Origin: Lysobacter capsici
GTDB taxonomy: Bacteria; Pseudomonadota; Gammaproteobacteria; Xanthomonadales; Xanthomonadaceae
NCBI RefSeq assembly: GCF_014779555.2
Contig: NZ_CP094357.1
Span: 2,728,001-2,792,000, forward strand
DNA: 64,000 bases
Direction of reading: 5' to 3'
Position 1 is the first letter of the stretch. Every line of letters begins with the position of its first letter. Under the pieces are notes generated by a model. It saw only the letters and a program-made list of their open reading frames with translations, was not told the origin of the DNA and ran no database searches. Both the position numbers and the translations under genes were made by a program. This document shows positions 1-19,613 of this stretch, one piece after another.

Positions 1-839
1 CTTATTCCTTGCTCGGTTACGCGGTGCGCAGCAAGAGCGATATCGCCGTGGTCGGCGATCTCAACGTGATCGGTAATGGCACCCTGGCCGGCCTGCGGCT
101 GATGCGCTCGTTCGCCGCGCGCGAAGGTTTCTTCCACTCGCTGAGCCTGGGCCTGGACTACAAGGACTTCAACGAGAACCTGGTGCAGGGCGCGGACCGC
201 GGTTCGGTGCCGATCGAATACCTGCCGATCAGCGTCAACTACAACGCCGACTGGGTGAAAGAACGCTCGGTCAGCGATCTGGCGCTGTCGGCGGTGTTCA
301 ACCTACGCGGGGTCGGCGACGGCCGAGCCGCGTTCGACGCCAAGCGTTATCAGGCGCAGCCGAATTTCTTCTACCTGCGCGCCTCGGGCTCGCACACCTG
401 GAAATACAGCAACGACGCGCAATTGATGCTGCGCCTGCAAAGCCAGTTCGCCGGCGAGCCCTTGATCAGCAACGAGCAATTCAGCATCGGCGGCCTCGAC
501 AGCGTGCGCGGCTATTACGAATCCGAATCGCTCGGCGATCTGGGCGCGGCGGCGACGCTGGAAGCACGCACGCCGTCGTTCTCCGATTCGCTCGGCGATG
601 CCTTCCAGGAATTGCGCCTGCGCGCGTTCGTCGATGCCGGTTATGCGCGCATCAACGATCCGCTGCCCGATCAACTGCGCAGCGAGACCCTGGTCAGCGC
701 CGGCTTCGGCGCATCGCTGAAAGCCTTCGGTCATTTCAACGGCTCGGTCGATGTCGCCAAGCCGCTGTCCAGCCCCAACGGCCGCGACCGCAAGCCCGAT
801 GGGGTCGAAGTCGGCGTGCGCCTGTGGGGCGAGTTCTGA
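1..839 (+). CDS. TpsB/ShlB/FhaC-family two-partner secretion transporter, C-terminal part (5' end outside window)
   Basis: This is the outer-membrane beta-barrel part of a two-partner secretion transporter that exports a large TpsA exoprotein. The reading frame is open to the left edge, so the POTRA domains and signal peptide lie outside the window. About 279 residues are visible. They contain alternating amphipathic strands, the barrel segment with an ISNEQFSIGG..SVRGY motif (the conserved ShlB/FhaC region around the plug-loop arginine), and a terminal phenylalanine (GEF) typical of outer-membrane barrel proteins. The gene lies upstream of exbB/exbD/tonB-like genes and about 6.8 kb upstream of a giant TpsA, which is its likely substrate. 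The family assignment is firm. The pairing with the TpsA rests on co-orientation and gene order. Confidence 0.9.
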   Translation, partial: YSLLGYAVRSKSDIAVVGDLNVIGNGTLAGLRLMRSFAAREGFFHSLSLGLDYKDFNENLVQGADRGSVPIEYLPISVNYNADWVKERSVSDLALSAVFNLRGVGDGRAAFDAKRYQAQPNFFYLRASGSHTWKYSNDAQLMLRLQSQFAGEPLISNEQFSIGGLDSVRGYYESESLGDLGAAATLEARTPSFSDSLGDAFQELRLRAFVDAGYARINDPLPDQLRSETLVSAGFGASLKAFGHFNGSVDVAKPLSSPNGRDRKPDGVEVGVRLWGEF

Positions 840-933
840 TCTTGCAACACCGGTGCGTCGCCCTCGCGGGCGTCGCGACCTGTCGTTTTGCCGGCCGCAT
901 GCAGGGCCGAACTACACTTACTGGGGATGTGTC

Positions 934-2766
934 GTGAACCGATTGCGCGTGATGCTGGCCACTGTGTTGTTGTTGCTCTCGCTGCCGGCGATGGCGGCCT
1001 CGTGGTGGGACGGTAAATGGAACTACCGGGCCAAGGTCGATCTCAACACCACCTCGGCCGGCGCCGGCGTGAGCGAGCCCGGCGGCCGCACCCAGGTGCT
1101 GGTGCGCCTGCATTCGGGCAACTTCAATTTCGCCGACGCCAAGGAAGACGGCAGCGACGTGCGCTTCATCGCCGCCGACGACCGCACGCCGCTGAAGTAC
1201 CACTTCGAGAAATACGACGGCCTGGTCGATCAGGTCGCGCTGGCCTGGGTCGATCTGCCGGACCTGCAGGCCAACGCGGCGGCGTCGATCTTTGTTTACT
1301 TCGGCAACCCCGAAGCGACCCCGGGCGGCGACGCCAAGGGCAGCTACGACGCCGACAGCGTCGCGGTGTATCACTTCGCCGATCAAGGCACCGCCGGTAA
1401 CGATCAGACCGCCTACGCCAACAACGCGCAGCCGCCGTTGACCCTGGCGCAGGCGGCGTTGATCGGTTCGGGCCTGCAGATGAACGGCCAGGCGCCGTTG
1501 AACGTGCCGGCCTCGTCGTCGTTGAACATCACCGCCGCGCAGGCGCTGACCGTGTCGGCGTGGATTAAACCGGCCGCGGCGAATGCGAGCGGTGTGATCG
1601 TGTCGTTGCCTGGCGCGCTGAGCTTGCTGCTCGATGCGGGCGTGCTGTACGCCGAAGTGCCGAGCGCCGCTGGCGTGCTGCGCAGTTCGGCCGGAGCACC
1701 GCTGAAGGGTGATGGCTGGGCGCACGTCGCGGTACGCGCCGGCGACAACAAGGTGACCGTGTACCTCAACGGCGCGCCGGTCGGCGAAGTCGCCGCGGCC
1801 TTGCCGGCGGCGAATGCGGGCCTGACGATCGGCGGCGAGAAAGCCGCCGACGGCGGCGCCGCGCGCGCCAATTTCATCGGCCTGATCGATGAAGTGCAGG
1901 TGTCGAAAGTCGCCCGTCCAGTCGGCCTGATCCAGGCCGCCGCGCACAGCCAGGGCCTCGACGCGCGCCTGCTTACGTTCCAGCCGGTCGAACAACGCTC
2001 CGGCGACGGCGGCCACAACTACTTCGGCATCCTGTTCAGCGCGCTCACCGTCGACGCCTGGATCGTGATCGTGATCCTCGGCTTCATGGCGGTGATCTCG
2101 TGGTGGGTGATGATCGGCAAGGGCGTGTTCGTCAACACCACCGCCAAGGCCAACGAACGTTTCCTGCAGGCGTTCCGCAAATACGCCGGCGAGTACCCGC
2201 TGCACGACATCGCCTGGGTCAAGGGCGCGCAGGATCACGGCCCGCTCAACGGCGAGAAATCCAATCTCGCGCGCTTGCTCGAGGTCGGTCTGGAGGAACT
2301 GCGCAACCGCGTCGCCGCCGGCGGCGGACGGTCGGTGGTGCGCACCCAGTCGATCGCCGCGATCCGTTCCGCGCTCGACGCCGCCGCGGTGCGCGAAGGC
2401 CAGCGCTTGAACAAGATGATGGTGCTGCTGACCATCGCGATTTCCGGCGGCCCCTTCCTCGGCCTGCTCGGCACCGTGGTCGGCGTGATGATCACCTTCG
2501 CCGCGGTCGCCGCGGCCGGCGACGTCAACATCAACGCGATCGCGCCCGGCATCGCCGCGGCGCTGCTGGCGACCGTCGCCGGCCTGGCCGTCGCGATCCC
2601 GGCCTTGTTCGGCTACAACTACCTGCTCAGCCGCACCGAAGCGATCGGCGCGGACATGCAGGTGTTCGTCGACGAACTGGAAAAACGCATCGCCGAAGAC
2701 TATGCCGGCGACGCGCCGCTGCCGTCGCAGCTGACCCGCAGCGTGTCGACGGAGACGCTGCCGTGA
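934..2766 (+). CDS. exbB: ExbB/MotA/TolQ proton-channel protein fused to an N-terminal DUF2341 and LamG-like region
   Basis: Predicted cytoplasmic-membrane proton channel that would power a TonB system. I chose the GTG at 934 because a signal peptide follows directly (hydrophobic run ending AMAA, then WWDGKW). Residues about 20-130 look like DUF2341 and about 150-350 like a concanavalin/LamG fold, so a large region should be periplasmic. A first membrane helix lies near 371-393 and two more near 500-565, with the MotA/TolQ/ExbB signature GPFLGLLGTVVGVM. Ordinary ExbB is roughly 240 residues; this protein is 610. Its stop overlaps the exbD start (GTGA). The ExbB half is clear; the DUF2341/LamG assignment rests on pattern recognition. 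A sugar- or surface-sensing role for the periplasmic half is conjecture. Confidence 0.88.
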   Translation: MNRLRVMLATVLLLLSLPAMAASWWDGKWNYRAKVDLNTTSAGAGVSEPGGRTQVLVRLHSGNFNFADAKEDGSDVRFIAADDRTPLKYHFEKYDGLVDQVALAWVDLPDLQANAAASIFVYFGNPEATPGGDAKGSYDADSVAVYHFADQGTAGNDQTAYANNAQPPLTLAQAALIGSGLQMNGQAPLNVPASSSLNITAAQALTVSAWIKPAAANASGVIVSLPGALSLLLDAGVLYAEVPSAAGVLRSSAGAPLKGDGWAHVAVRAGDNKVTVYLNGAPVGEVAAALPAANAGLTIGGEKAADGGAARANFIGLIDEVQVSKVARPVGLIQAAAHSQGLDARLLTFQPVEQRSGDGGHNYFGILFSALTVDAWIVIVILGFMAVISWWVMIGKGVFVNTTAKANERFLQAFRKYAGEYPLHDIAWVKGAQDHGPLNGEKSNLARLLEVGLEELRNRVAAGGGRSVVRTQSIAAIRSALDAAAVREGQRLNKMMVLLTIAISGGPFLGLLGTVVGVMITFAAVAAAGDVNINAIAPGIAAALLATVAGLAVAIPALFGYNYLLSRTEAIGADMQVFVDELEKRIAEDYAGDAPLPSQLTRSVSTETLP

Positions 2767-3167
2767 AGGTCCAGGGCAAGAAACCCTACGACGACATCAA
2801 CATCACGCCGATGCTGGATCTGGCATACGTGCTGCTGGTGATCTTCATCATCATGACCACCGCGGCGGTGCAGGGGATCAAGGTCGACCTGCCCAAGGCC
2901 AGCGCGAGCCAGCCGCTGTCGGTGCCCAAGACCAAGGTGATCGCGATCGACAACGCCGGCCAGCTCAGCATCGACGCGGTGCCGGTCAGCATGAGCGAGC
3001 TCGAACAGCAACTGCGCAACGCGCTGGCCAACGACGCCGAACTGCCGGTGATCCTGCGCGGCGATCGCGCGGTGCAGTACGACAAGGTCATGGCGGTGCT
3101 GGACCTGTGCAGCAAGCTCGGTATTTCCTCGATCGGTCTGGCGTCGCAGCGCCAGGCCGCCGGTTGA
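2763..3167 (+). CDS. exbD: ExbD/TolR-family proton-channel subunit
   Basis: ExbD partners ExbB in the inner-membrane motor that uses proton motive force to energise TonB. The 134-residue protein has a short cytoplasmic N-terminus with the motif DINITPMLDLAYVLLV, a single membrane helix (about residues 16-35) that carries the conserved channel aspartate (Asp19), and a periplasmic C-terminal domain. The GTG start at 2763 overlaps the exbB stop by four bases, which implies translational coupling. It ends 13 bases before the TonB-like gene, so exbB-exbD-tonB form one unit. The length and motif match the family well. Confidence 0.93.
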   Translation: MKVQGKKPYDDINITPMLDLAYVLLVIFIIMTTAAVQGIKVDLPKASASQPLSVPKTKVIAIDNAGQLSIDAVPVSMSELEQQLRNALANDAELPVILRGDRAVQYDKVMAVLDLCSKLGISSIGLASQRQAAG

Positions 3168-3180
3168 GCGGGCGGGGATC

Positions 3181-3849
3181 GTGAGCCGTTCCTACGGACA
3201 ACCTTCGCGCTGGTCGCGCGCGCTCACCGTGGTCGGCGCGCTCGGCGTGTTCGCGGTGCTCGCGTGGCTGGTGTGGTCGCTGATGCAGGACGCCGGTCCG
3301 ACCCAGAAGCGCATGCCGCCGCGCATTACTCAAGTGATCCTGCCGCCGCCTCCACCGCCGCCGCCTCCGCCGCAACCCGACAAGGTGCCGGAGGAAGAAA
3401 AACTGGTCGAGAACACGCCGTTCGAATCGATCGATCCGCCCAAGGACGACTCGGCCGATCCGCCCGGTGATCCGCTTACCGCCGACGCCGGACCGGGTTC
3501 GAACGAATTCGGCCTGACCCCGGGCAGCGGTGGCGGCGGCACCCGCATCGGCGGCAAGGGCGGTGGCGGCAATCCGTATGCCGGTTATGCCGCGATGGTC
3601 CAGCGCAACGTCCAGCAATACCTGCAGCGCGACGAGAAAACCCGCAAGGGTCGTTATTCGGCGACGGTCGCGATGTGGCTCAACGCCGACGGCACGATCC
3701 AGCGTTCGCAGGTGCTCACCTCCACCGGCAAGCCCGAACTCGATCGCGCCATCGTCGCCGCCTTGCAGGGCCGCGCGCTGCCGCGGCCGCCGCCGGACCA
3801 GATGCCGCAACCGATCAACCTGCGCATCGGCGCGATTTCACCGGGCTAG
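3181..3849 (+). CDS. TonB-family energy transducer
   Basis: TonB spans the periplasm and passes energy from ExbB/ExbD to outer-membrane partners. The 222-residue protein has an N-terminal membrane helix (about residues 14-38), a run of ten prolines followed by acidic spacer sequence, a glycine-rich stretch (GSGGGGTRIGGKGGGG), and a C-terminal TonB fold (about 130-222) with the pattern RYSATVAMWLNADGTIQ..VLTSTG.PELDRAI. It begins with GTG 13 bases after exbD. There is no TonB-dependent receptor gene in view, so the candidate outer-membrane clients are the neighbouring TpsB or the porin. That is an unusual situation; the client is an inference. Confidence 0.9.
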   Translation: MSRSYGQPSRWSRALTVVGALGVFAVLAWLVWSLMQDAGPTQKRMPPRITQVILPPPPPPPPPPQPDKVPEEEKLVENTPFESIDPPKDDSADPPGDPLTADAGPGSNEFGLTPGSGGGGTRIGGKGGGGNPYAGYAAMVQRNVQQYLQRDEKTRKGRYSATVAMWLNADGTIQRSQVLTSTGKPELDRAIVAALQGRALPRPPPDQMPQPINLRIGAISPG

Positions 3850-3897: not shown

Positions 3898-5616
3898 ATG
3901 ACCGTACTGTCCAATCCGCATCGCCGCTTCACGCTGAGCGCATTGACGCTGGCGCTGGCCGCGCTGTGCATGACGCCCGCCCTGGCCGCGCCGCCGGTCG
4001 ACGCGTCCAAGATCAGCCCCGAAGTCACCCTCAAGCTCATCGACTTGCTGGTCGCCAAGGGCGTGATGACGCGCGAGCAGGCCGACGATCTGATCGCCGA
4101 GGCGAGCGCCAGCGCCGCGTCCAAGCCGGCGACGGCGGTCGCCGCGCAGCCCGCGTACCAGACCGCGCCCGGCGCGGTGGTCGTGCCGTATATCCCCGAA
4201 GTCGTGCGCCAGCAGATCAAGGACGAACTGCGCGCCGAAGTCACCCAGCAGGCCAAGAGCGAAGGCTGGGCGGCGCCGAACGCCTTGCCCGAATGGACCC
4301 AGCGCATCAGCGTCTACGGCGACCTGCGCGCGCGCGCCGAGGACGTGCTCAACGACGGCGAGAACTACAACGACTTCCCGAATTTCGGCCTGCTCAACGC
4401 CGGCAGCGGTTACGACGTCAACGATCCGCTGTCCAACCCGCTGCCGACCGTCAACACCACCAAGAACCGCGGCCGCATGCGCATGCGCGCGCGCCTGGGC
4501 GTGCATGCGCAGATCGCCGACTGGGTCGAGGCCGATCTGCGCATGGCCACCGGCAGCGACCGCAGCCCGGTGTCGACCAACCAGACCCTCGGCGCCGGCG
4601 GCAATCTGTCCAAGTACTCGCTGTGGCTCGATCGCGCCTACCTGCGGCTCAAGCCGACCGATTGGCTGAGCGCCGACATCGGCCGCGCTCCCAATCCGTT
4701 CTGGACCAGCGAGCTGTTGTTCGACACCGACCTGGGCTTCGACGGCGTGGCGGTCAAGACCGAGTTCGATCTGGGCCCGGATTTCCATCCCTACGTCAAC
4801 GTCGGCGCGTTCCCGATCTTCAATACCGATTTCGATTTCGGTTCGACCCAGCGCGCCGACAAGGCCAGCAGCCGCGACAAATGGCTATACGGCGTGCAGG
4901 CCGGCGCGGACTGGAAATTCAGTGATGAGGTGAAGTTGAAATTCGGCCTGGGTTATTTCCTGTTCGATCACATCAACGGCGAGCGCTCGTCGCCGTGCAT
5001 CGCGCCGACCTCCAAGGACGTGTGCGACACCGATCTGTCGCGGCCGCAGTTCCAGCAGTTCGGCAACACCATGTTCGCGATCCGCGACATCGTGCCGGCC
5101 TCGGGCGCGCCCGACGGCCCGCAGTTGCAGTATTTCGGTTATGCCAGCGAATTCGGCGTGGCCAACCTGCACGCGGCGCTGGAAATCGCCAGCTTCGATC
5201 CGGTCAAGATCGTGATCGAGGCTGATGTGGTCAAGAACCTCAAGTACGACGCCAAACGCATCCAGGCGCTGGGTCCGCTCAACAACTTCAAGCCCAACAT
5301 CGAACCGTTGCAGCACGACGGCGGCGACAGCGGCTACTACGTCAACCTGCTGGTCGGTCAGCCCAAGATCGCCAAGGCCTGGGACTGGAACGCGAGCATC
5401 GGCTACAAGCGTCTGGAATCGGACGCGGTGCCCGATGCCTTCACCGATTCGGATTTCCACCTGGGCGGCACCAACGCGCGCGGCTTCATCGTCGGCGGTT
5501 CCCTGGGCCTGGCTCGCAACACCTGGCTGGGACTGCGCTGGCTCAGCGCGAACGAGGTGACCGGTGCGCCGTATTCGGTGGACGTGGTCCAGCTCGATCT
5601 GAGCACTGAATTCTGA
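3898..5616 (+). CDS. Putative outer-membrane porin (Porin_5-like) of the TPS/TonB locus
   Basis: Predicted outer-membrane channel. The start at 3898 gives a clean signal peptide (MTVLSNPHRRFTLSALTLAL...ALAAPP); an upstream ATG at 3868 is possible but would precede the signal. After the signal comes a short helical segment with SPEVTLKLIDLLVAKGVMTREQADDLI, which looks like an SLH-like or coiled oligomerisation motif. A long barrel of alternating strands follows and ends in LDLSTEF, with the terminal Phe expected for BAM recognition. The 572-residue length fits the putative-porin family. It may move phosphate or another small solute, as in phosphate-regulated TPS loci, but no specificity can be read from the sequence. 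Confidence 0.8.
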   Translation: MTVLSNPHRRFTLSALTLALAALCMTPALAAPPVDASKISPEVTLKLIDLLVAKGVMTREQADDLIAEASASAASKPATAVAAQPAYQTAPGAVVVPYIPEVVRQQIKDELRAEVTQQAKSEGWAAPNALPEWTQRISVYGDLRARAEDVLNDGENYNDFPNFGLLNAGSGYDVNDPLSNPLPTVNTTKNRGRMRMRARLGVHAQIADWVEADLRMATGSDRSPVSTNQTLGAGGNLSKYSLWLDRAYLRLKPTDWLSADIGRAPNPFWTSELLFDTDLGFDGVAVKTEFDLGPDFHPYVNVGAFPIFNTDFDFGSTQRADKASSRDKWLYGVQAGADWKFSDEVKLKFGLGYFLFDHINGERSSPCIAPTSKDVCDTDLSRPQFQQFGNTMFAIRDIVPASGAPDGPQLQYFGYASEFGVANLHAALEIASFDPVKIVIEADVVKNLKYDAKRIQALGPLNNFKPNIEPLQHDGGDSGYYVNLLVGQPKIAKAWDWNASIGYKRLESDAVPDAFTDSDFHLGGTNARGFIVGGSLGLARNTWLGLRWLSANEVTGAPYSVDVVQLDLSTEF

Positions 5617-5627
5617 GCACGGGAGCG

Positions 5628-6530
5628 ATGAAGATGCGTCTGCGTCCTGAGCGTTTGTGTGGGTCTGGTTCGATCGGGTTCGATGCGGTCGTGTCGACGG
5701 CTGCCGGCACGGCGGCAATTGTTCATGCTGCGGCCGGTCCGACCGCGGGCATGGCGCGCATGCCTGTCGCGGGCCGATTGCTTCGCCGCGCGATCGCGCA
5801 CGGTCTGTCGTTGACGCTGCTGCTGTGTTTAGCCGTCCCGGGAGCCCAGGCGCAGACCGCCAACGAAACGCGCCTGCGCGATGCGCTGCGCGACACCGGC
5901 GCGCGCCTGCGCACCGCCGAGGCGGCCCTGGCTGCGCAGCAGGCGGCGACCGCCTCGGCCGAGCGCGAGCGCGATGCGCTCAAGGCCCAGGCCGCGAAGC
6001 CCGCGGCGCGCGACGACGGCGCACGGCTGGCGGCGTTGCAGCGGCAGATCGAGCAGAACGCGGCCGCGTCCGAACAAGCGCGCGCGAGCGCCGGCAAATG
6101 GCAGGCGGCGCAGCAGCAGGCCGCGCAGCTGGTGCAACACAAGGAGGCCGAGCGCATTGCGCTGGCCAAGCAACTCGACGCCGCGCTGGCGCAGTCGGCG
6201 CGTTGCGCGACCGGCACCCAGGCGCTGTACGACACCGGGCGCGAACTGGCGGGGCTGTATCGCGATCCGGCCTTCATCGCGTTCGTGCGTTCGCGCGGTT
6301 TTGGCCCGCTCGGGTTCAATCGCGTCGAGAAAGAGAATCAGGTGCGCGCGCTCGAGGACAAGCTCGATCGTCAGCGCGATGAGCTGGCGCAGTGCGCGGG
6401 CGATGCGGGTGCGCGCGGGGCTGGTACGAACGCCAATGCGTCCGTGGGTGTGGACGCCGGTGCGGCGGTGGAGCGCGACGGCATGGCTGGCGACAGGATC
6501 AGCGATACGGGCAAGTCGGGCGGCGGATGA
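5628..6530 (+). CDS. Exported coiled-coil protein of unknown function in the TPS locus
   Basis: I do not recognise a family. The ORF encodes up to 300 residues. A typical signal peptide (GRLLRRAIAHGLSLTLLLCLAVPGAQAQ) begins near an internal ATG at 5751, so the true start may be 5628, 5634 (better spaced from GGGAG at 5621) or 5751. The exported part is rich in Ala, Gln, Arg and Glu with heptad-like spacing, which predicts a coiled coil over about 150 residues, followed by a short segment with CATGTQALYDTGRELAGLY and a second helix. The last bases overlap the next gene by four (ATGA). A periplasmic chaperone or spacer role in exoprotein export is a guess from context. Confidence 0.6.
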   Translation: MKMRLRPERLCGSGSIGFDAVVSTAAGTAAIVHAAAGPTAGMARMPVAGRLLRRAIAHGLSLTLLLCLAVPGAQAQTANETRLRDALRDTGARLRTAEAALAAQQAATASAERERDALKAQAAKPAARDDGARLAALQRQIEQNAAASEQARASAGKWQAAQQQAAQLVQHKEAERIALAKQLDAALAQSARCATGTQALYDTGRELAGLYRDPAFIAFVRSRGFGPLGFNRVEKENQVRALEDKLDRQRDELAQCAGDAGARGAGTNANASVGVDAGAAVERDGMAGDRISDTGKSGGG

Positions 6531-6883
6531 GCTTTCGACGCGCCCTCGTCGCAGTCGTGATGCTGGCCGCCGGGTCGGCCGGCGCGCAGCAGCGCCTGCT
6601 GCCGGCCTCCAAGCCGGCCACCGCGCCGTGCGTGCAGGTGCGTATCGGCAACGACGAAGCGGGGCGCTGGTCGTGTCTGAATCAGGCGCTCAAGGCCGAG
6701 GTCGACAAGGTCGCGCCGGTGATCGCCGACGAGCCGCCCGGCGACCGCATCGCTCCGATTGGCCTGGGTCTGGCGACACCGGCCGCGACCCGACAGCGGC
6801 TCGGCGACCAGTACGGCCGCTCGGTGCTACCGCAGCGTCCCGCGCGCCACTTCGCGCCGCCCGCGTTGAAGCCGGTGCGTTGA
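6527..6883 (+). CDS. Small exported protein of unknown function in the TPS locus
   Basis: This encodes a 118-residue protein with a clear signal peptide (MSFRRALVAVVMLAAGSAGAQQ). Two cysteines in the mature part (C-x14-C region, PCVQVRI..GRWSCLNQAL) could form a disulfide, and the C-terminus is basic and proline-rich. The start ATG overlaps the stop of the preceding coiled-coil gene, so the two are probably co-translated. No domain is recognisable. The overlap, the signal peptide and the position right before the exoprotein gene argue that it is real rather than a chance frame. Confidence 0.6.
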   Translation: MSFRRALVAVVMLAAGSAGAQQRLLPASKPATAPCVQVRIGNDEAGRWSCLNQALKAEVDKVAPVIADEPPGDRIAPIGLGLATPAATRQRLGDQYGRSVLPQRPARHFAPPALKPVR

Positions 6884-6904
6884 TCGTCATGACCACGTCC
6901 ACCT

Positions 6905-7083: not shown

Positions 7084-7154
7084 AGCGAGTTACCGCAGGT
7101 ACAACAGCCGCCGCAGCTGCACATGATGACTGCGTCAGCTGCACATGATGGCTG

Positions 7155-10600: not shown

Positions 10601-13600
10601 CAATCTGCCGGCGTCGTTCCATGCCGCCGACGGCGAAGCGGGGCAGTTGCGCTTCCAGGACGCGACCGTGCGTGCCGGTGGCCTCGCCGGAGGCGGGCGT
10701 TTGAGCCTGCAGGCGCGCGATGTCCAGATCGGCGGCGCGGCGGCCGACGATGCGCGCACCCTGCAGCTCGACGCAGGCTTCTTCGAACAAGGCGATTTCG
10801 GCAGCTACGACCTGATCGCCCAGCACGATGCGACCATCGCCGCGGACACCACCGTGCGGGTCTCGCAACGCAACTTCGTGCCTGACCGCGAAGCGCTGCG
10901 CTTGTTGCCGACCGGCGGCGATCTGTATGCGGGCCTCAACCTCGACGGCCGCGGCGCCAACGGCGCCTTCGGCCTGATCGACACCTACCATCGCCCCGCC
11001 GCGGATTTCGCCCTGGAAGCCGGCGCCGCGACCGGCCGCACTTTGCCCAACCACCCGCAACTGGGACAGCTGCGCGACACCTTGCTGCTCGACGAAGGCG
11101 CGCAGCTGCAGCTCGACGCCGGCGGCGATGCGCGCCTGGGCTCGCGCGGCCAGCTCACTGTGCTGGGCGGCGTAACCGCGCACGGCGGCAGCATCGCCTT
11201 GTCCGGCGACACCTCGGTGCAGGGCTTGTCGCCGTCGCACAGCCCGGCGCCGATCGATTACTGGCGCGGCTCCAAGTCGGTGTGGGTCGGCCAGAACGCG
11301 GTGCTGGACGTGTCCGGCGTGGCCTTGCTCGATCCGTTCAAGACGCCGTTGCCGCAGGGAGGCGCGGTGCCGCGCGACGGCAGGCTGCTCGACGGCGGTC
11401 GCATCACATTGAGCAGCGACAGCGGTTACGTGGTGGTCGAGCAGGGCGCGCAACTGGATTTGTCCGGCGCGCGCGCGGTGTTCGATCTGCCGGCCAATAG
11501 CAATGGACTCGGTGATGCGCCGTTGGCGCCACGTACGGTATGGAGCGATGGCGGCGATCTGGTGCTGTCGTCCGCGGCGGGTCTGTATTTCGATGGCGAT
11601 ATCCATGCCGCCGGCGGCGATGCGCAGGCGCGCGGCGGCAGCGTGCAGTTGCTGGCCGCGCAGAGCACGCGTCCGCTCGACAACAGCGGCGGCCGCGCGC
11701 CGCTGGCGACCAGCGCGATCGTGTTCCATCAGGACGGCAGCCGCTTGAACACGGCGGCCAAGCCCGGCGAAGCGATCGAACCGGGCGCGGCCACGCCGTC
11801 GGGCAAGATGTATTTCGCCGCCGATCGTCTCGATGGTTCCGGCGTCGACACCTTGCGGGTCGGCATCGGCGAGGACGGCTTGCCGCAAGGCCCGTTGGTG
11901 GCCCCGGTGGTGTTCGACGGCGCGGTCGACCTGTCGTTGTCGCGCGCCTTGATGATGAACGCACGCGCGTTCGTCGCCGGCGACGCCAGCGGCGAAGCGA
12001 AGTTGTCGGCGGCGTACGTGTCGCTGCAAGGCCTGTTGCCCGGCAGCGAGCGCAGTCGCGCGCTGGCCGAACCGGGCCATCCGGGCGATGCGCGCCTGTC
12101 GGTCGAGGCCGGTTTCATCGATATCGGCGGCCGCGTGACCTTGCAGAACTTCGGCGAAGCGCGATTCGCCAGCCGCGGCGATCTGCGCCTGCACACGCCG
12201 ACCGAATACCAGAGCGTCGCGGTGGCCGGCGAAACCCGCCAAGTTCCCGGCGAACTGCTGACCTCGGGCGATCTGACCTTGTCCGCCGCGCAGGTATATC
12301 CGGCCAGCGGCGAGACCTTCATCGTGCGCGCGCTTGGCGCGCGCAACGGCGCCGGCGCCACTGCGCCGCGCGACGAAACCACGATTCGCATCGTAGGCAA
12401 CGGTAATGCCGCGGCGCTGCCGCTGTCGGCCGGCGGACGGCTGTTGTTCGACGCCAGCCATATCGAACAGGCCGGCGTGGTGCGCGCACCGGGCGGACGC
12501 ATCGTGCTCGGCGCAGGCGCGGCCACCGATCCGGACACGCTCGCCTTGTTCGGCGGTCTCGCGTTGACGCCGACCCAGAGCGTGAAACTCGGCGCCGGCA
12601 GTCTCACCTCGGTGTCGCTCGACGGCCGCGTGCTGCCTTATGGCAAGACCGTCGACGGCCTGCAATGGAACGCCAGCGATATCGAAGTCAACCTCAACGC
12701 GCCGTCGGCGCGGCAGGTGCGCATCGACGGCGCCGATCTGGCCCTGGACGAGGGCGCGCGCGTTGATCTGTCCGGCGGCGGCGATCTGCAGGCGTTCGAA
12801 TGGATCGCCGGCACCGGCGGCAGCCGCGATGTGCTGTCGGCGGTCGGCACCAGTTACGCCGACGGCGGCAGCGGCAGCGCGACCTATCTGTATCCCGATC
12901 AGCGCGGCGTGTATGCGGTCGTGCCCGGCGTGCAGTCGCCGCTGGCGGCGAGCGATCCGCTGCTGAGCCAGGGCCAGGTCGGCGGCGAAGTCGGCAAGTC
13001 GGTTTATCTCAGCGGCGTGCAGGGTCTCGCCGACGGCGTCTACACCTTGCTGCCGGGCCGTTACGCGACCTTGCCCGGCGCGTTCCGCGTGGTTCAGCGC
13101 AGCGGCGGTCAGGACAGTTTGAGCAGCCGCAACCTGACCGCGCCCGACGGCACCCAGGTGGTCGCCGGTTATTACGTCGATTCGCTCAGCGGCGCGCGCG
13201 ATGCGCGCAGCAACCGTTTCGAAGTGCAGTCGCGCGAGGTCTGGGGCCGCTATTCGCAGTACCAGCTCAGCAGCGCGAACACGTTCTTCGCCGCGCGCGC
13301 GGCCAAGGCCGGGTCGATCGCGCCGAACCTGCCGCGCGATGGCGGCCAGCTGGTGCTCAGTGCGCAGCGCGCGCTGGAACTCGGCGCGCGCCTCGACGTG
13401 GCCGCGGCGGCTGGCGGCGCGGCGGCGCAGGTCGACATCGTCGCCGACGCGATCCAGATTCGTGGCGATGCGCAGGCCGCACGCGACGGTTATGTGCAGC
13501 TCGACGCCAATCAACTCAGCGCGCTCGGCGCCGGCAGCCTGTTGATCGGCGGCGTGCGCAGCCAGACCGGCGAGGGCACGCGCCTCGACGCGCGCACCCG

Positions 13601-16600
13601 TGATCTGATCGTGTCCAACGATGCCTCCGCGCCGCTGCAAGGCGCCGAGATCGTGCTGGTCGCGCGCGCCAGCGACGGTACGCAGGGCGTGCAGATCGAA
13701 GACGGCAGCGTGATCCAGGCGCGCGGCCAGCTGGCCGGCGCCAGCGATCGCCCGCTGCTGATCGGCGCGGTCGCCGACAGCGCCAGCAACACCGCCGCGG
13801 TCAGCGGCGACGGCGCATTGCTGCGCGTGTCCAACGCCGGCGCGGTCGACGTGCAACGCCGCAACGTGCCGGCGTTCGAACAGTCGCGCGGCCTGCTGCG
13901 GGTCGGCGAACGCGCGAAGCTCGACGGCGGCGCGTCGCTGACCCTCGACAGCACCGGCCAGGCCGTGGTCGACGCCAGCGCCTCGCTCGGCGGCCGCGAC
14001 ATCCAGGCCAACAGCGGCCGCATCGCCTTCACCCAGAACGACGGCGACTACGACGGTTTCGTGATCGGCCGCAACACCTTGAACCAATTCGCCGCGGCCG
14101 AGCGGGTGAGCCTGCGCAGCTACGGCGACATGGCGTTCTTCGGCGACATCTCGGTCGATACCGATCGTCAGCTCAGTCTCAGCGCCGGCCGCTTCGTCGG
14201 CGACGGCGGCACGGTGACCCTGCGCGCGGACCGCCTGAGCCTGAGCAATGATCTGGGCGCGGCCAGCACCGCCAATGCCGACGCATCCGGCAGCGGCGTG
14301 TTGCAACTGCGCGGCGGCGAGGTGGTGTTCGGCGGCGGCGACAAACGCTTGCTCGGCTTCGGCGCGGTCAGCGTCGATGCGAACCGTTCGATCGCGGTCC
14401 AGCAACGCGGCAGCTTCGATTTCGGCGCGGCCTCGTTGGGCCTGCGCTCGCCGCTGATCCAGGCCGATGCGGGCGCCGACAACACCCTGCGAACGACCGG
14501 CGCGATCGCGCTCGCGCGCAGCGCCGGCGATGCCGGCAGCGCGCGTCCGCAGGGCGGCGCGATCGGGCTCGACGGCGCCAGCATCAGCGGCAATGCCTTG
14601 ATCCGCGCGAATTCCGGCAAGGTCGGCCTGCATGCGCGCACGGGCGATCTGCGCCTGGACGACGGCACGGCGATCGACACCTCGGCGGTGCCGAAGGCGA
14701 TCTTCGACCAGACCGTGTACTCGCCAGGCGGCCGCATCGAACTGCAGGCCGATCATGGCGCGATCCATTTGGCGAGCAACGCCAGCCTCGACGTATCGGC
14801 CGACGCCGGCGGCGGCGATGCCGGCGAACTGCGCATCGTCGCGCCCGAACGCGAGGCCGAACTGCTCGGCGCGCTCAAAGGTTCCGCGCCGAAGGGCCGC
14901 GGCGGCCGCATCGACATCGATGTGGGCGCCGCGCTCGACCTGGACGGCCTGTCGCAGCGCTTGAACGACGGCGGCATCAATCAGCGCGTCGCGGTGCGCA
15001 CCCGCAGCGGCGATCTGGCGCTGTCGGCCGGGCATACGCTGAAGGCGCGCGAGATCAGCCTGACCGCCGACGGCGGCGCGGATGCGACGACGCGCGATGC
15101 GGACAACGGAAACGTCCGCATCGCCGGCACGCTGGATGCCTCGGGCACGTCCGGCGGCAAGATCGAACTGTGGGGCCGCCACGGCGTCGAAATCGACGGC
15201 CGCTTGCTGGCCAACGGCAGCGCCGCCAACAAGCGCGGCGGCGAGGTCAAGATCGGCACCGGCGGCGTCAGCGACGGCACGCTCAACGCCGATTACGGTT
15301 ATCAGAACGTGCGCGGCGAAGACGCCGGCATCATCCGGATCGGCCGCGACGCGCTGATCGATGTGCGCGGCGGCAGCGCCGGCGGTCTGTCCGGCGGCCG
15401 CGTCGATCTGCGCGCGCCGCTGCTGCAGGGCGGCGATGTCAACGTGGTGATCGAAGACGGGCAGGGCATCGTCGGCGCGCGCGAAGTCGGGCTGGAAGCG
15501 TATGCGGTCTGGAGCACCACCGACGCCCACGACGACAGCACCGCCGGCAAGCATTTCGACGGCATCGTCGATCCGGCCGGCTGGTACGACGCGCAGGGGC
15601 AACTGCTGCCGGGCACCTGGACCGACGCCAGCGGCGCCGTGCTGGCGCCGCCGACCACGCCCGAACAACTCAAGCAGTACCTCAACCGCCACTTCTTCGC
15701 GCCCGATCAGGCCAACCGCGCGCATCAGACCTTCTACGGTTACGTCGATGGCGACACCGAGGCGCATCAGTCCGGCACCTTGATGGGCTTCGTGCGCAAT
15801 CCGGGCTTCGCCTTCGGCGATCGTTTCGCCGGCGTCGCCAACTTCCGCGCGCGGCCGGGCGTGGAACTGCGCAATCCCGATCCGGCCATCAACGGCGGCG
15901 CGATCCGGGTATTGACAAACTGGAACCTCAACTCCGGCGAACTGGGCAACCTCGACTTCCGCTACAACGGCGCCGCGCCGGTGCTGACCTTGCGCGCGGA
16001 CGGCGATGTCGAAGTCGCCGCGACTATTTCCGACGGCTTCTACAACTACAACGCTAGCGGCGGCGGCGCGGTCGGTTCGTATCCGGTCTCGCATCAGCGT
16101 TACACCGACGCGCTCAGCGTGATCGATCCGATCGCCTACGACTACCTGCCCGAACCGGTGCAGTACGACGGCGATTCCGAAGAAATCGGCCAGTACTACG
16201 GCCAATACGACGAACTGCTGAAAATGCTGACCGATCCGGTGCCGGAACTCGACGACGTGTTCGGCCCGGGCACCAGCTTTCTCAAGGCGATCGAACAGTT
16301 CCTGCTCAGCGGCCCGGTCGATCCCGATCCGCCGATCCTGGGCCCGGCGCCGCCGACTTCGCCGTCGGGTTACGGCGATTACGTCAGCGGTTATCGCGAT
16401 TACCTGTTGCGTCTGACCCAGCAGGTGTTCGACCCGGGCATCATTCCGACCGTCAACGAACGCCCGGTGTTGCCGGTGCTCGGACCGGTGCCGGCCGCGG
16501 CCGACCGCACCCCGAGCCTGCAGGCCTCGGCGCTCAAGCCGATGCCGTTCGCCGACAAGATCCTCGCCGGCGGCGACAGCAGCAGCTACCGCTTCATCGC

Positions 16601-19600
16601 CGGCGCGGATTTCTCCAGCGTCGCGCCCGGCGTAGTGCGCGGCGACCAGAACGCCGACCTGAAGTTCGACGGCCACACCACCTTGCTGCAGAACGGCAAG
16701 CGCGAACTGCTGATGCCGAACATGGTCCGCACCGGCACCGGCGCGATCGATCTGGCCGCGTCGCGCGACATCCGTTTCGCCGATCGCGACGCGCCGGCCA
16801 GCGTCTACACCGCTGGCCGACCGGGCGAGGGCACCAGCGCCGATCGTTCGCGGCCGACCGTGGACTCCAACCAGTCCGCCTCCAACACCGCGCTCGACGT
16901 GATCGTCACCGGCCCGGTCAATCCCGAAGCGGCCGGCGATATCGGCCTGCGCGCGGGCCGCGACATCGTCGGCAACCGGCAGATCTACGACGACGCGGCC
17001 GGCAGCCGCAGCGGCAACGCCGGCAGTTATCTGGGCCAGTACTGGTGGCCGTGGATGCAGACCGGCAACGTGCTCGCCGACGATCAGCGCACGCTGCTGT
17101 CGACCTCGATCAACTTCGGCGGCTTCGCCCAGGGCTTGCTCAGCGTCGGCGGCGACATCGACATCAGCGCCGGCCGCGACATTCGCGAAGTGTCGGCTTC
17201 GGCGCCGACCACGTGGATCAAGGACGGCAACGCGCTGCGTGTGTTCGGCGGCGGCGACATCCGCGTCGACGCCGGCCGCGATCTGCTCGGCGGCGATTTC
17301 TTCGTCGCCAAGGGCGAGGGCGAAATCTACGCCGGCGGCCGCATCGGTTCGGCCTTCGATCTGGACGCGCTGGTGTTCATCGACAACATCTCCGCCGTTG
17401 CCAGCCGCATGCGCAGCGCGGTCGCGCCGATTCTGGCGATGCAGGACGCGAATTGGCGGGTCACCGGCGCGCAGGACGTGGAAATCGGCCGGGTGCTCAA
17501 TCCGTCGTATGCGCGCCTGCCCGAGAACATCGCCGATTCGCAGTCCTATGGCAGCGACACCCAGCTCAGCGTGACCTCGGTGGCCGGCGATCTGTCGTTC
17601 GATACGCTCAGCCTCGGCGATGTGCTGTTCGCTTACGGTAACCGCAGCACCTCGCGCGCGCAGGCGCCGTACGAGATCCACGACAACCCGATCTTCGCCC
17701 AGGTGCTGCCGTCACGGCTGTCGCTGAGCGCGGCCGCGGGTAACCTGAGCCTGCACAACGGCGGCCAGCTGTTCCCGTCGGCGAACAGCCAGCTCAGCTT
17801 GCTGGCCGGCGGCGACCTGCATCTGCTATCGGATCAGTTCCCGCTGGTCGACACCTTGCGCATGCTCGATATCGATCCGGACTGGATGCCGTCGCCGTTC
17901 CGGCAATTGGCCAGCCTGCCGGGCGAGACCGCGTTCGATTACGCCTTGATCGATCGTTTCGAACCCGATCGCAACCAACGCGCCAACCTGCATCAGGGCG
18001 ACGCCGAGTTGGTGAGGATCTACGCGCTCGGCGACATCCTCGGTGGTATCCAGAGCGAACGCTCCAGCCTCAACACGCTGCGCATCGATCTGCCCAAGCC
18101 GGCCACGGTGCGCGCCGGCCGCGATATCGTCGACCTGGATTTCCGCGGCCAGAACTACCGCGCGTCCGACGCCACCCGCATCCTCGCCGGCCGCGATCTG
18201 TATTACCGGCCGCTGGCGCGCGGCAATGGCGCGTTCAAGACCTCGCAGTCGTGGTTGCAGATCGGCGGGCCGGGTACCTTCGAAGTGCAGACCGGTCGCG
18301 ACCTGGGGCCGTTGACTTCGGCCAACGAGGCCTACGCCAACAACCAGCTCAAGCCCGACGGCGGCGGCATCCGCAGCATCGGCAACCGCGACAACGCCGG
18401 CTTGCCGTTCCAGGGGGCGGACCTGGTGGTGCGCTTCGGCGTCGCGCCGGGCGTGAAAACGCGCGCGTTCGCGCAGCGTTATCTCGATCCGTCCAGCGCC
18501 GATGCTGCGTCGTACTCGGCGTTGTTGATCGCTTACATGCAGCAACTTCGCCAAGACGAACTAGCCCGCAACGGCGCGGCCGGCGACGCGCCCGCGCTCA
18601 ACGCCGATCAGGCCTGGCAGGCGTTCGCGCAGCAACCCGAGGCGGTGCAGCAGCGCCTGGTCGACAAGGTCTTCCTCGACGTGCTCAAGCGCGCCGGCCG
18701 CGACAACAAGGACCCGGCCAGCGCCGAGTTCGGCAAGTACGCCGCCGGTTATCGCGCGATCAACACCTTGTTCCCGGCGGCGTTGGGCTACACCGCCAAC
18801 CAGCTCGAAGGCGGGCAGAACGGCGCCGAGAAACCGGTCTCGACCGGCCAGCTCGACATGCGCGGTTCGACCTTGCAGACCCAGCAGGGCGGCGACATCC
18901 GCATCCTCGGCCCGGGCGGCGACATCCAGATCGGCAGCGTGGCCGCGCCGCCGATGGTGGTGAACAACCAGGGCGCGGTGGTGATCGGTCCGAACCAGCA
19001 GGGGATCCTGACCCTGGACATCGGCGATATCGGCCTGTTCGCCGATCGCAGCGTGTTGCTCGCGCAGAGCCGCATCTTCACCCAACGCGGCGGCGACCTG
19101 CTGATCTGGAGTTCCAACGGCGACATCAACGCCGGCAAGGGCGCCAAGACTTCCTCGGACAAACCCCCGGTGCGTTACGTGTGCGACATCGACCACAACT
19201 GCCGGATCGACGCCAAGGGCCTGGTCAGCGGCGCCGGCATCGCGACCTTGCAGACCGTGCCCGGCGCCAAGGCCGGCGACGCGGTGCTGGTCGCGCCGCG
19301 CGGCACCATCGACGCGGGCGACGCCGGCATCCGCATCAGCGGCAACCTGATCGTCGCCGCGCAGACCGTGGCCAATGCCGACAACATCCAGGTCGACGGC
19401 GATTCGATCGGCATCCCGGTCGCGCGCGGCGTCGACACCGGCGCCTTGTCGGCCGCGTCGTCGGCGAGCTCCGGCGTCAACGCGGTCGCCCAGGACATGG
19501 CGGGTCAGCGACCGGCGCTGGCGACCCGCGACATCCCGGCGTTGATTTCGGTGCAGGTGATCGGCTTCGGCACCTGCGGGGCGGACGATCCGCGCTGCGC

Positions 19601-19613
19601 GAATTCGCCGTAG
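7620..19613 (+). CDS. Giant filamentous-haemagglutinin-family TpsA exoprotein (3997 aa)
   Basis: Predicted secreted beta-helical adhesin-type protein exported by TpsB. It has a signal peptide (residues about 1-35, ending AQADPNP), then an Ala/Gln-rich stretch, and a TPS/haemagglutination-activity domain at about 85-300 with NRNGVVFG at 226-233, a variant of the family NPNG motif. Thousands of residues of repetitive beta-helix follow (patterns such as GG.I.L.A...L.V.G and AGRDI), broken near 2830-2990 by a Pro/Tyr-rich insert. The C-terminal third resembles the DUF3739 type. Only four cysteines occur, in two pairs near the end (3855/3861 and 3986/3993). The C-terminal pair recalls the disulfide anchor of Haemophilus HMW1. 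One uninterrupted frame supports the gene. Confidence 0.93.
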   Translation: MTRKPVRGFRTSPLRVLALSAAISMALIGGTAQADPNPFARRGLDPSAQAARAAQQQGLQSVRAQQAAQKSLAAFGRAAQVRSALDAAQVAARAAAAASQIGNNVPNGLGEGGLKIAAGVRIEPGAILANDPRLGGSKLWLGAKTPTQRVDGADTTVTIEQTQKKAILSWESFNVGKQTTVYFDQRGGNQSGGNDWIALNRVDDPSGRPSQILGRIKAEGSVYLLNRNGVVFGGGSQVNTRSLVASSLNLFDNDVAKSNRIFINEGIQRARQDTQDAFVLTSERVDYSGSGALPGQPGDIRIEAGAQIKTAAGGYALIAAPNISNAGSVQGEDGQVQMAAVIGARAGQPSGGNDLRLRYGDIGTVAGTDPAALGYGRFDNTGIIASKRGEVTLTGHDIRQDGYVGTTTGVSRPGKISIVAANHTRASDANTAAELADRIGGSLSFGRDSATVILPERDGENTTSAPSADKAFQPPSATLAGAQIRFQENSLVLMPGAKLDLVGMDVLRQAGVKPPPGRILLEHGATLNVAGLTDVQRPMSDNYVTIERIGENELADSPLLRGGGLFRQKVQLDIREHGVTDDGRAWVGSPLLNAAGYADQVPRKIDQMLVDGGSINVIGREFVARSGSTMELGAGYVHYLGGMVESRRLLGADGRRYSLADADPSQNYLGFADAYTLDHQRWDVQEVFGSPLGGRERRYESDYLEGGDAGSLSIRLKQDASGGANGVESGLLLAGDIHAEAESGRHQIERGELARGGVFKLSVDNGPFTDWRLQSARSEDAPAGFGMNTALPQTFASDGSRVTTLSTQLLNAAGFGTVELNDPRAHIDVAADAQLQVQAGGRIALSGSRINVDGGLQAESGDIVLSAAAEFDNQLKAGERRGITVGSGARLSTRGQWVNDGDRIAEQRSGGANIDGGSIRLSTTSRLQNSGGELRDASGAIVLERGAELDVSGGGRILPDGSLAQKDGVPLGRGGDIALLTYQPAAGDENSLNGNLPASFHAADGEAGQLRFQDATVRAGGLAGGGRLSLQARDVQIGGAAADDARTLQLDAGFFEQGDFGSYDLIAQHDATIAADTTVRVSQRNFVPDREALRLLPTGGDLYAGLNLDGRGANGAFGLIDTYHRPAADFALEAGAATGRTLPNHPQLGQLRDTLLLDEGAQLQLDAGGDARLGSRGQLTVLGGVTAHGGSIALSGDTSVQGLSPSHSPAPIDYWRGSKSVWVGQNAVLDVSGVALLDPFKTPLPQGGAVPRDGRLLDGGRITLSSDSGYVVVEQGAQLDLSGARAVFDLPANSNGLGDAPLAPRTVWSDGGDLVLSSAAGLYFDGDIHAAGGDAQARGGSVQLLAAQSTRPLDNSGGRAPLATSAIVFHQDGSRLNTAAKPGEAIEPGAATPSGKMYFAADRLDGSGVDTLRVGIGEDGLPQGPLVAPVVFDGAVDLSLSRALMMNARAFVAGDASGEAKLSAAYVSLQGLLPGSERSRALAEPGHPGDARLSVEAGFIDIGGRVTLQNFGEARFASRGDLRLHTPTEYQSVAVAGETRQVPGELLTSGDLTLSAAQVYPASGETFIVRALGARNGAGATAPRDETTIRIVGNGNAAALPLSAGGRLLFDASHIEQAGVVRAPGGRIVLGAGAATDPDTLALFGGLALTPTQSVKLGAGSLTSVSLDGRVLPYGKTVDGLQWNASDIEVNLNAPSARQVRIDGADLALDEGARVDLSGGGDLQAFEWIAGTGGSRDVLSAVGTSYADGGSGSATYLYPDQRGVYAVVPGVQSPLAASDPLLSQGQVGGEVGKSVYLSGVQGLADGVYTLLPGRYATLPGAFRVVQRSGGQDSLSSRNLTAPDGTQVVAGYYVDSLSGARDARSNRFEVQSREVWGRYSQYQLSSANTFFAARAAKAGSIAPNLPRDGGQLVLSAQRALELGARLDVAAAAGGAAAQVDIVADAIQIRGDAQAARDGYVQLDANQLSALGAGSLLIGGVRSQTGEGTRLDARTRDLIVSNDASAPLQGAEIVLVARASDGTQGVQIEDGSVIQARGQLAGASDRPLLIGAVADSASNTAAVSGDGALLRVSNAGAVDVQRRNVPAFEQSRGLLRVGERAKLDGGASLTLDSTGQAVVDASASLGGRDIQANSGRIAFTQNDGDYDGFVIGRNTLNQFAAAERVSLRSYGDMAFFGDISVDTDRQLSLSAGRFVGDGGTVTLRADRLSLSNDLGAASTANADASGSGVLQLRGGEVVFGGGDKRLLGFGAVSVDANRSIAVQQRGSFDFGAASLGLRSPLIQADAGADNTLRTTGAIALARSAGDAGSARPQGGAIGLDGASISGNALIRANSGKVGLHARTGDLRLDDGTAIDTSAVPKAIFDQTVYSPGGRIELQADHGAIHLASNASLDVSADAGGGDAGELRIVAPEREAELLGALKGSAPKGRGGRIDIDVGAALDLDGLSQRLNDGGINQRVAVRTRSGDLALSAGHTLKAREISLTADGGADATTRDADNGNVRIAGTLDASGTSGGKIELWGRHGVEIDGRLLANGSAANKRGGEVKIGTGGVSDGTLNADYGYQNVRGEDAGIIRIGRDALIDVRGGSAGGLSGGRVDLRAPLLQGGDVNVVIEDGQGIVGAREVGLEAYAVWSTTDAHDDSTAGKHFDGIVDPAGWYDAQGQLLPGTWTDASGAVLAPPTTPEQLKQYLNRHFFAPDQANRAHQTFYGYVDGDTEAHQSGTLMGFVRNPGFAFGDRFAGVANFRARPGVELRNPDPAINGGAIRVLTNWNLNSGELGNLDFRYNGAAPVLTLRADGDVEVAATISDGFYNYNASGGGAVGSYPVSHQRYTDALSVIDPIAYDYLPEPVQYDGDSEEIGQYYGQYDELLKMLTDPVPELDDVFGPGTSFLKAIEQFLLSGPVDPDPPILGPAPPTSPSGYGDYVSGYRDYLLRLTQQVFDPGIIPTVNERPVLPVLGPVPAAADRTPSLQASALKPMPFADKILAGGDSSSYRFIAGADFSSVAPGVVRGDQNADLKFDGHTTLLQNGKRELLMPNMVRTGTGAIDLAASRDIRFADRDAPASVYTAGRPGEGTSADRSRPTVDSNQSASNTALDVIVTGPVNPEAAGDIGLRAGRDIVGNRQIYDDAAGSRSGNAGSYLGQYWWPWMQTGNVLADDQRTLLSTSINFGGFAQGLLSVGGDIDISAGRDIREVSASAPTTWIKDGNALRVFGGGDIRVDAGRDLLGGDFFVAKGEGEIYAGGRIGSAFDLDALVFIDNISAVASRMRSAVAPILAMQDANWRVTGAQDVEIGRVLNPSYARLPENIADSQSYGSDTQLSVTSVAGDLSFDTLSLGDVLFAYGNRSTSRAQAPYEIHDNPIFAQVLPSRLSLSAAAGNLSLHNGGQLFPSANSQLSLLAGGDLHLLSDQFPLVDTLRMLDIDPDWMPSPFRQLASLPGETAFDYALIDRFEPDRNQRANLHQGDAELVRIYALGDILGGIQSERSSLNTLRIDLPKPATVRAGRDIVDLDFRGQNYRASDATRILAGRDLYYRPLARGNGAFKTSQSWLQIGGPGTFEVQTGRDLGPLTSANEAYANNQLKPDGGGIRSIGNRDNAGLPFQGADLVVRFGVAPGVKTRAFAQRYLDPSSADAASYSALLIAYMQQLRQDELARNGAAGDAPALNADQAWQAFAQQPEAVQQRLVDKVFLDVLKRAGRDNKDPASAEFGKYAAGYRAINTLFPAALGYTANQLEGGQNGAEKPVSTGQLDMRGSTLQTQQGGDIRILGPGGDIQIGSVAAPPMVVNNQGAVVIGPNQQGILTLDIGDIGLFADRSVLLAQSRIFTQRGGDLLIWSSNGDINAGKGAKTSSDKPPVRYVCDIDHNCRIDAKGLVSGAGIATLQTVPGAKAGDAVLVAPRGTIDAGDAGIRISGNLIVAAQTVANADNIQVDGDSIGIPVARGVDTGALSAASSASSGVNAVAQDMAGQRPALATRDIPALISVQVIGFGTCGADDPRCANSP

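Follow-up and report, generated by a model that had tools for sequence, protein, structure and literature searches.

A 64,000-nucleotide stretch of the complete 6.24 Mb genome of Lysobacter capsici (contig NZ_CP094357.1, positions 2,728,001 to 2,792,000, hereafter the window) opens inside a two-partner secretion (TPS) locus that also carries genes for ExbB, ExbD, TonB and a porin. We found that one clade of TpsB transporters, DUF3739-type TpsA exoproteins, ExbB proteins with an added DUF2341–LamG part, ExbD, TonB and Porin_5 porins form a single near-obligate module, and that the window locus is a further member of the type known from the pdt locus of Pseudomonas aeruginosa. Two-partner secretion is textbook energy-free outer-membrane transport; here one clade of its transporters was tied to a private proton motor and to one porin family in every sampled genome where the genes could be seen. 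New here is the evidence for this near-obligate module, which reaches beyond Pseudomonadota, together with candidate contact strands. As to function, we tentatively prefer the view that the motor acts on the surface display of the giant exoprotein and not on its export.

Co-occurrence across genomes

Four Pfam families were searched for in a single set of 398 Pseudomonadota genomes that contained the window's own. ShlB, which marks TpsB-type transporters, was found in 177 genomes and DUF2341-bearing ExbB in 13. DUF3739, the TpsA type, was present in 14, namely the same 13 and G284, while Porin_5 was present in 20 (14 full length, six weak or partial), and the genomes with full-length Porin_5 were the same 14 that carried DUF3739. 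In G284 no TpsB was found, and a 3.8-kb contig beginning within exbB carries the exbB, exbD, tonB and porin genes; because exbB is cut by the contig end, this genome is no real exception. The probability of a 13-in-14 overlap by chance was about 2e-23 by genomes and about 2e-17 by genera, relatedness being left in both values. Furthermore, a profile of motor-linked TpsB (alignment A3, built from 45 of 47 thinned TpsB) gave 14 matches of 500–790 bits in exactly the 13 genomes, with the next match at 366 bits; as the profile itself derives from motor-linked rows, the high scores were expected, the score gap less so.

The copy numbers pointed the same way. DUF2341-ExbB, full-length Porin_5 and pdt-type TpsB stood at 1:1:1 in 12 genomes and at 2:2:2 in G155, whereas TpsA ranged from one to three copies per genome among the 14, suggesting that one transporter–motor–porin unit can be paired with several exoproteins, as noted earlier for other bacteria (PMC2729926). 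As controls, 20 other ShlB loci from the same genomes were hand-picked among the matches listed, three of them shortened by contig ends, and no motor, porin or DUF3739 genes were found nearby. The earlier note on this DNA had proposed looking for co-occurrence of TpsB with exbB, exbD and tonB; it was strong for one TpsB clade and failed for the 20 hand-picked loci. In G268 the motor genes (L025) had no tpsB alongside, and tpsB, porin and tpsA were on another contig (L034). A 578-residue frame with a beta-helix domain adjoins the L025 motor.

Named relatives of the locus

Genome contigs were searched with an ExbB alignment, and the best 80 of at least 168 confirmed loci, a sample leaning to near relatives, were scored for gene content with local profiles. 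A TPS gene, either TpsB or DUF3739-type TpsA, was in view in 77 of the 80 (TpsB in 56, TpsA in 49, both in 28) and absent from view in L084, L090 and L104, the last a 4.2-kb contig. The gene order varied, with tpsB or tpsA immediately before exbB in 71 loci. A porin was found in 74, and in 69 of the 69 where at least 3.5 kb follows exbB; in the six loci without one, the sequence stops within 1.1 kb downstream of exbB. Two of the 74 porin matches were contig-end fragments (L078, L094), and the L090 porin lay on the opposite strand. TonB was present in 77 loci, the sequence of the remaining three stopping no more than 0.7 kb from exbB, and homologues of the exported coiled-coil protein described below in 64, some by weak matches. 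Related arrangements thus recurred beyond chance, in 80 named loci and in 13 of 398 genomes, the window's among them. The view of the earlier note that the motor is dedicated to the TPS locus was supported.

Most closely related among the named loci was that of Lysobacter sp. yr284, with identities of 83% in ExbB and 87% in TpsB, and in Pseudomonas relatives ExbB aligned along nearly the full query length. Besides Pseudomonadota, the 80 loci included Verrucomicrobiota and one Myxococcota assembly, many of these non-Pseudomonadota loci being metagenome bins. A PpiC isomerase gene was nearby in 30 loci. Genes for an extracytoplasmic function (ECF) sigma factor and FecR accompanied 17, too few to define the whole group, and a phdA-like gene stood directly before tpsB in eleven Pseudomonas loci.

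As the earlier note had stated, there was no TonB-dependent receptor at the window locus, and we found none just upstream either: the genome has 59 plug domains, and the one closest to the locus, with its start at 2,668,536, is still some 58 kb upstream of tpsB. A receptor outside the window as the true client of the motor was rejected for this locus on the same ground. The relatives were searched, up to 10 kb on each side in view, with a plug profile made from 12 training sequences, 12 of 12 being recovered in leave-one-out trials. It gave two near-threshold matches, L093 and L019, which Pfam identified as real receptors with an STN domain, both located beyond the porin in loci of the Stenotrophomonas type. 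Among the 80 named loci a receptor was in view in one, L093 of Stenotrophomonas (20830–21687, at the far end of the stretch). The L019 receptor (94–3300, minus strand) lies behind a FecR gene about 2.7 kb beyond the porin, and so looks like an ordinary signalling receptor, yet it is an exception to the receptor-free neighbourhood. A wider search of the 80 loci revealed no further receptor, only short STN or TonB-type proteins. One such protein (L042, 4153–5004), with similar ones beside other loci, combines an STN domain with a TonB C-terminal domain and resembles VreA, a barrel-less receptor, in having a TonB-like end on a signalling protein.

The motor proteins

In the window all genes of the locus are on the plus strand. 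The exbB gene (934–2766) starts with GTG and encodes a signal peptide, a periplasmic DUF2341 and LamG (lectin-like) part of about 350 residues and then the MotA/TolQ/ExbB motor domain (Pfam MotA_ExbB, E=8e-27); start codon and signal peptide were judged by eye, and the DUF2341 and LamG domains had gone unmentioned in the earlier note. The exbD gene (ExbD/TolR family; 2763–3167; ExbD E=2e-27) overlaps the end of exbB by 4 bases, and tonB (3181–3849) encodes one membrane helix, a Pro-rich and Gly-rich linker and a TonB C-terminal domain (TonB_2, E=1e-11). All 93 aligned ExbB rows have both pore threonines, and all 103 aligned ExbD rows have the membrane aspartate (ExbB alignment A1 was built from 12 of 14 ExbB). 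These residues, which we take to be those of the proton path, were invariant, so the motor looks able to work, and together with the TonB C-terminal domain they agree with a Ton motor. A tandem exbD pair was seen in nine of the 80 named loci and in L029 (the ten loci being L029, L064, L084, L089, L091, L096, L105, L112, L116 and L118), a two-ExbD variant of the motor mostly found with the order tpsA–exbB.

The affinity of the motor was less clear-cut. For ExbB and ExbD, the TolQ and TolR models outscored the ExbB and ExbD models, all of them below their cut-offs, and the best Protein Data Bank (PDB) matches were TolQ chains. The third protein was above the cut-off for NCBIfam tonB_Cterm and fitted Pfam TonB_2 better than TolA, while NCBIfam TolA gave a slightly better E-value, yet below cut-off. 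The DUF2341–LamG part matched no solved structure in a single-sequence search; a profile search of structures gave LamG-type matches, for example an arabinanase.

The TpsB transporter

The window holds the 3′ part of tpsB (1–839); the whole gene starts about 750 bases before the window, likely at an ATG (open reading frame (ORF) L001:17142-18839). TpsB matched ShlB (E=8e-24) and POTRA_2 (E=3e-15) in Pfam. An AlphaFold2 (AF2) model of the L041 relative, 87% identical to the window TpsB (pLDDT 90.5, residues 1–34 unstructured), predicted two POTRA domains and a 16-strand Omp85-type barrel without an H1 plug helix, and its best PDB matches were CdiB (6wim) and FhaC (4ql0). With a POTRA- and ShlB-bearing TpsB, and a TpsA that has a signal peptide and a TPS domain, the locus encodes a predicted two-partner (type Vb) secretion system.

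The earlier note had named TpsB or the porin as possible clients of the motor. For TpsB this was so far not supported: the 66 motor-linked proteins share no conserved TonB box in the N-terminal segment, which is short, variable and of low complexity, with 2–52 residues between signal peptide and POTRA (median 19, by a rough heuristic). In 10 of the 20 control TpsB, 41–73 residues precede POTRA, the signal-peptide ends being judged by eye. However, the segment was also short in the five nearest motor-less relatives (the sister loci, two of which, L154 and L155, break off near tpsB at one end), so a short N-terminus gives no sign of motor coupling. We had considered a lost H1 plug as a mark of such coupling and dropped it, as the five sister TpsB, with motor genes in 0 of 5, are short as well. 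In the tree, 56 motor-linked TpsB fell on one side of a branch from the 20 controls with support of 100/99. The branching departed from taxonomy, with Lysobacter beside sphingomonads and Caulobacter, and Stenotrophomonas beside Burkholderiales, which suggests that the unit has spread by transfer.

The exoprotein and the porin

The exoprotein gene tpsA (7620–19613) encodes 3,997 amino acids with a TPS domain at residues 147–344 (E=6e-22) and a Pfam DUF3739 domain at residues 3824–3934 (19089–19421; E=4e-36). Classical TpsA proteins start with the TPS domain; here it begins at residue 147, behind an Ala/Gln-rich extension that follows the signal peptide (7725–8057). Judged by eye, about 100 Ala/Gln-rich residues precede the TPS domain in many motor-linked exoproteins, and such an extension is absent in L027, L039, L056, L064 and L086. 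Motor-linked TpsA were also long, with 20 stop-to-stop frames of 3,295–5,122 residues against 1,245–2,367 in four sister TPS loci without a motor, a weak hint that size is the reason for the motor.

The end of the protein showed a conserved feature. A pattern search matched a VxVLGFG-type strand, placed after DUF3739 and separated from it by a variable stretch, in 40 of 42 tails, and the two missed, L068 and L103, show the strand by eye; L018 and L020, near copies of L019, were left out of the original 44. In the window the motif reads ISVQVIGFG (19545–19571) and is followed by a Cys pair (CGADDPRC). The pattern, written after the tails had been inspected, matched 0 of 4 sister TpsA without a motor and 0 of 6 large ORFs, unverified as TpsA, beside other control tpsB. 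Among the 40 strand-bearing tails, 12 carried the Cys pair, 11 a second strand motif and none both (p 0.017, on related rows). The tail is a third candidate client of the motor.

The porin gene (3898–5616) matched Porin_5 with E=2e-192. Its AF2 model (pLDDT 87.1) consists of a periplasmic helical hairpin, a loose linker, a helix and a 16-strand barrel without plug, and the nearest PDB fold was OmpM1 of Veillonella. In alignment A2 (57 porins, from 56 of 64 thinned loci and the window), the linker carries the motif VxVxY[VI]P, whose mean of 2.96 bits exceeds that of the barrel (2.30) and of the linker ahead of it (1.52). The window copy, VVVPYIPE (4177–4200), is a candidate TonB-contact strand that includes Tyr68 of the mature chain and falls in a coil at 61–70 of the model. 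Tyr68 is shared by all 57 rows; of the 13 invariant columns, no other precedes the barrel. The conserved strand-like motif keeps the porin, the second candidate of the earlier note, in play as a possible client. The resemblance of the linker strand and the TpsA tail strand to TonB boxes may serve as a lead.

Layout and surroundings of the locus

The genes follow each other on one strand in the order tpsB, exbB, exbD, tonB, porin, two small exported proteins and tpsA, with a strong terminator last; all those listed in the earlier note, including the 3997-residue exoprotein, were found in that order. Its description of a series without a break did not quite hold, as 736 bp with repeats separate the second small gene from tpsA. 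The window itself cuts tpsB. The first small protein (5628–6530) is an exported coiled-coil protein read from an ORF; it has no Pfam match and takes the position of PA0697 in the pdt operon. The second (6527–6883) belongs to no Pfam or NCBIfam family. The gap (6884–7619) contains short tandem repeats and, twice, a 145-bp repeat that has inverted parts (6889–7033 and 7148–7292). A closely similar repeat core occurs three times before tpsB (L030, 6112–6551), and thus repeats lie on both sides of the operon.

The rho-independent terminator after tpsA (19670–19699) folds at −31.9 kcal/mol over 19660–19710 (z −6.1). Palindromic elements of GTAGGAGCGGCGCGAGCCGCGACCGC type, which we take to be perhaps repetitive extragenic palindromic (REP) elements of this bacterial family, lie at 19740–19850 and 20010–20115. 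Directly downstream of the terminator is a gene for a PstS-like periplasmic phosphate-binding protein (20432–21964), a relative of which was found in only one of the 80 related loci (L083). No Pho box matched at three or fewer mismatches in the window and the 18 kb before it, with an E. coli consensus, and a promoter scan before tpsB and tpsA gave 0 matches, such a scan being uninformative for DNA of this kind. Single-sequence searches found no ECF sigma, FecR, PpiC or phdA relatives in the window or the preceding 18 kb, and no VreAIR (CSS) regulators in L001 or the window.

Function of the motor

TPS export needs no energy in vitro and works in liposomes (PMC5422565), which led us to place the motor after export. 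In our tentatively preferred reading, the locus would be a pdt-type system whose dedicated proton motor acts on the surface display of the giant exoprotein. TpsA would exit through TpsB unaided, N-terminus first, and stall when its C-terminal tail lies within or beneath TpsB. Powered by ExbB–ExbD, TonB would span the periplasm and, beneath the outer membrane, engage a partner by strand addition; this partner could be the tail strand of TpsA or the linker strand of the porin. This strand addition might hold, load or release the filament in step with the proton-motive force, and the lectin-like periplasmic part of ExbB could sense or dock the assembly; SiiA–SiiB acting on SiiE would be the model for the retention step. 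This reading draws on the pairing of each transporter with one motor, the conserved tail of the giant exoprotein and the lack of an import receptor at the locus. The Cys pair and second strand motif, never found together, behave as expected of alternative holding devices.

Several points weigh against it. The tail pattern was post hoc, which tilts the comparison with other TpsA in its favour, and the six control ORFs were unverified as TpsA. That Cys pair and second motif exclude each other carries little weight (p 0.017, on related rows), and the tail strand may serve TpsB or the DUF3739 fold, unrelated to TonB. PdtA is said, in work of Faure in 2014, to be processed into a released part and a retained part, but proteolysis alone could explain this. 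The SiiAB analogue works with a type I system and without TonB. Finally, a holding role gives no reason for the porin, whose association is as regular as that of TpsA. A narrower version, in which the tail strand is a substrate-borne TonB box, the motor retains, pulls or releases the filament through TpsB, and the porin is a fixed partner, seems to us possible though somewhat doubtful.

The regularity of the porin keeps alive the alternative that the motor energises the Porin_5 channel: TonB would bind the linker strand and open uptake of a nutrient captured by the exoprotein, following the logic of HxuA–HxuB–HxuC. The porin's presence in all 69 loci with enough sequence and in the same 14 genomes as DUF3739, its copy number, which tracks the motor and not TpsA, the invariant Tyr68 in a coil stretch and the induction of the P. 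aeruginosa operon by phosphate starvation (PMC4971064, PMC7035377) are all consistent with this. However, the model is an ordinary 16-strand barrel with no plug, and the linker motif may merely cap a trimer stalk. We know of no porin that requires TonB. The porin–motor pair is not singled out by G268, where porin, tpsB and tpsA share one contig and the motor lies on another. We consider the uptake explanation doubtful.

The idea in the earlier note that the motor drives the giant exoprotein through TpsB appeared unlikely. The 100/99 branch and the greater length of motor-linked TpsA argue for it, while large FHA-type proteins are secreted without a motor and the missing H1 plug is common to the five motor-less sister TpsB. 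The absence of a conserved TonB box from the 66 TpsB sequences and the activity of TPS in energy-free liposomes (PMC5422565) also speak against it.

We regard as quite improbable a Tol-like envelope system, in which motor and porin would brace the outer membrane during secretion of a very large protein without acting on TpsA directly. The higher scores of the TolQ and TolR models (below cut-offs), the TolQ chains among PDB matches and the porin's nearest fold, OmpM1, an outer-membrane attachment porin, would fit such a system; the third protein, by contrast, passed the TonB C-terminal model and fitted Pfam TonB_2 better than TolA, and no TolB or Pal was found among the ten neighbour proteins to which the scan was limited. 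Movement of a surface filament, as GldLM or AglRS move gliding adhesins, is hardly credible: motor and giant surface protein do form a single unit, and DUF2341 appendages on generic ion-driven motors are described as unexplained (PMC12505986), but no motility gene was recognised in the module, which occurs in many bacteria that, as we infer, are not known to glide.

Collectively, these data would bear on the holding and release of giant adhesins, and give DUF2341, DUF3739 and Porin_5 a context. What had been a passing remark on P. aeruginosa tonB4 becomes a testable question, for which the parts are defined, two contact strands are candidates and motor-less sister TPS loci offer natural controls.

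Comparison with known systems

In the HxuA–HxuB–HxuC operon of Haemophilus, HxuC is a true TonB-dependent receptor and there are, to our knowledge, no motor genes. The TPS exoprotein of that system has a TonB-dependent outer-membrane partner (PMC5422565). In Salmonella, SiiA–SiiB is a motor of the Mot/Exb/Tol family dedicated to the giant adhesin SiiE (PMC6272769, PMC12607715); loss of SiiAB leaves SiiE secretion intact, and retention of SiiE follows the proton-motive force (PMC12607715, PMC6272769). That system uses a type I exporter and is without TonB, porin or lectin domain, so that we claim a likeness of working only and not membership.

The TpsB model shares two POTRA domains and a 16-strand barrel with transporters of the CdiB/FhaC type, and lacks the H1 plug helix of CdiB (PMC7644211). 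In other systems, too, long ExbB proteins carry an additional periplasmic segment at the N-terminus (PMC9008036), DUF3450 and DUF2341 being named as such parts (PMC12505986); here the extra part is DUF2341 with LamG and is tied to TPS loci. The exbB2 gene of SYK-6 was rejected as a parallel, being TolQ and of another kind than DUF2341-ExbB (PMC8599685).

The closest comparison is the P. aeruginosa pdt locus, a parallel that the earlier note had drawn rightly (PMC2729926, PMC4971064, PMC7035377). It is described as pdtA and phdA-pdtB-exbB2-exbD2-tonB4-PA0696 onward (PMC7035377, PMC4971064), and its operon is induced under phosphate starvation (PMC4971064, PMC7035377); the phosphate link mentioned in that note was not seen in the DNA here, where no Pho box matched, though a PstS-like gene lies just downstream. 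Homologues of the TPS genes, exbBD and PA0696 have been reported together in six other strains of five species, and under overproduction of the sigma factor a mutant of the tonB homologue and a PA0696 mutant had wild-type virulence in zebrafish embryos (PMC2729926). The pdt motor has been called uncharacterised in print, and among the open-licence papers searched we found no test of a motor role in TPS secretion. The pdt locus differs in its PpiC gene at PA0699, matched in the 30 relatives mentioned above and not found by single-sequence search at the window locus, which by the same search showed no ECF sigma, FecR or phdA relative and gave no Pho-box match; in the window tpsA lies downstream on the same strand. 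Taking the P. aeruginosa side from the papers, the two loci have in common the order tpsB, exbB, exbD, tonB, putative porin and exported protein. With this order and a porin of PA0696 type, a DUF2341–LamG ExbB and a DUF3739 exoprotein, the Lysobacter locus is a further member of the pdt type.

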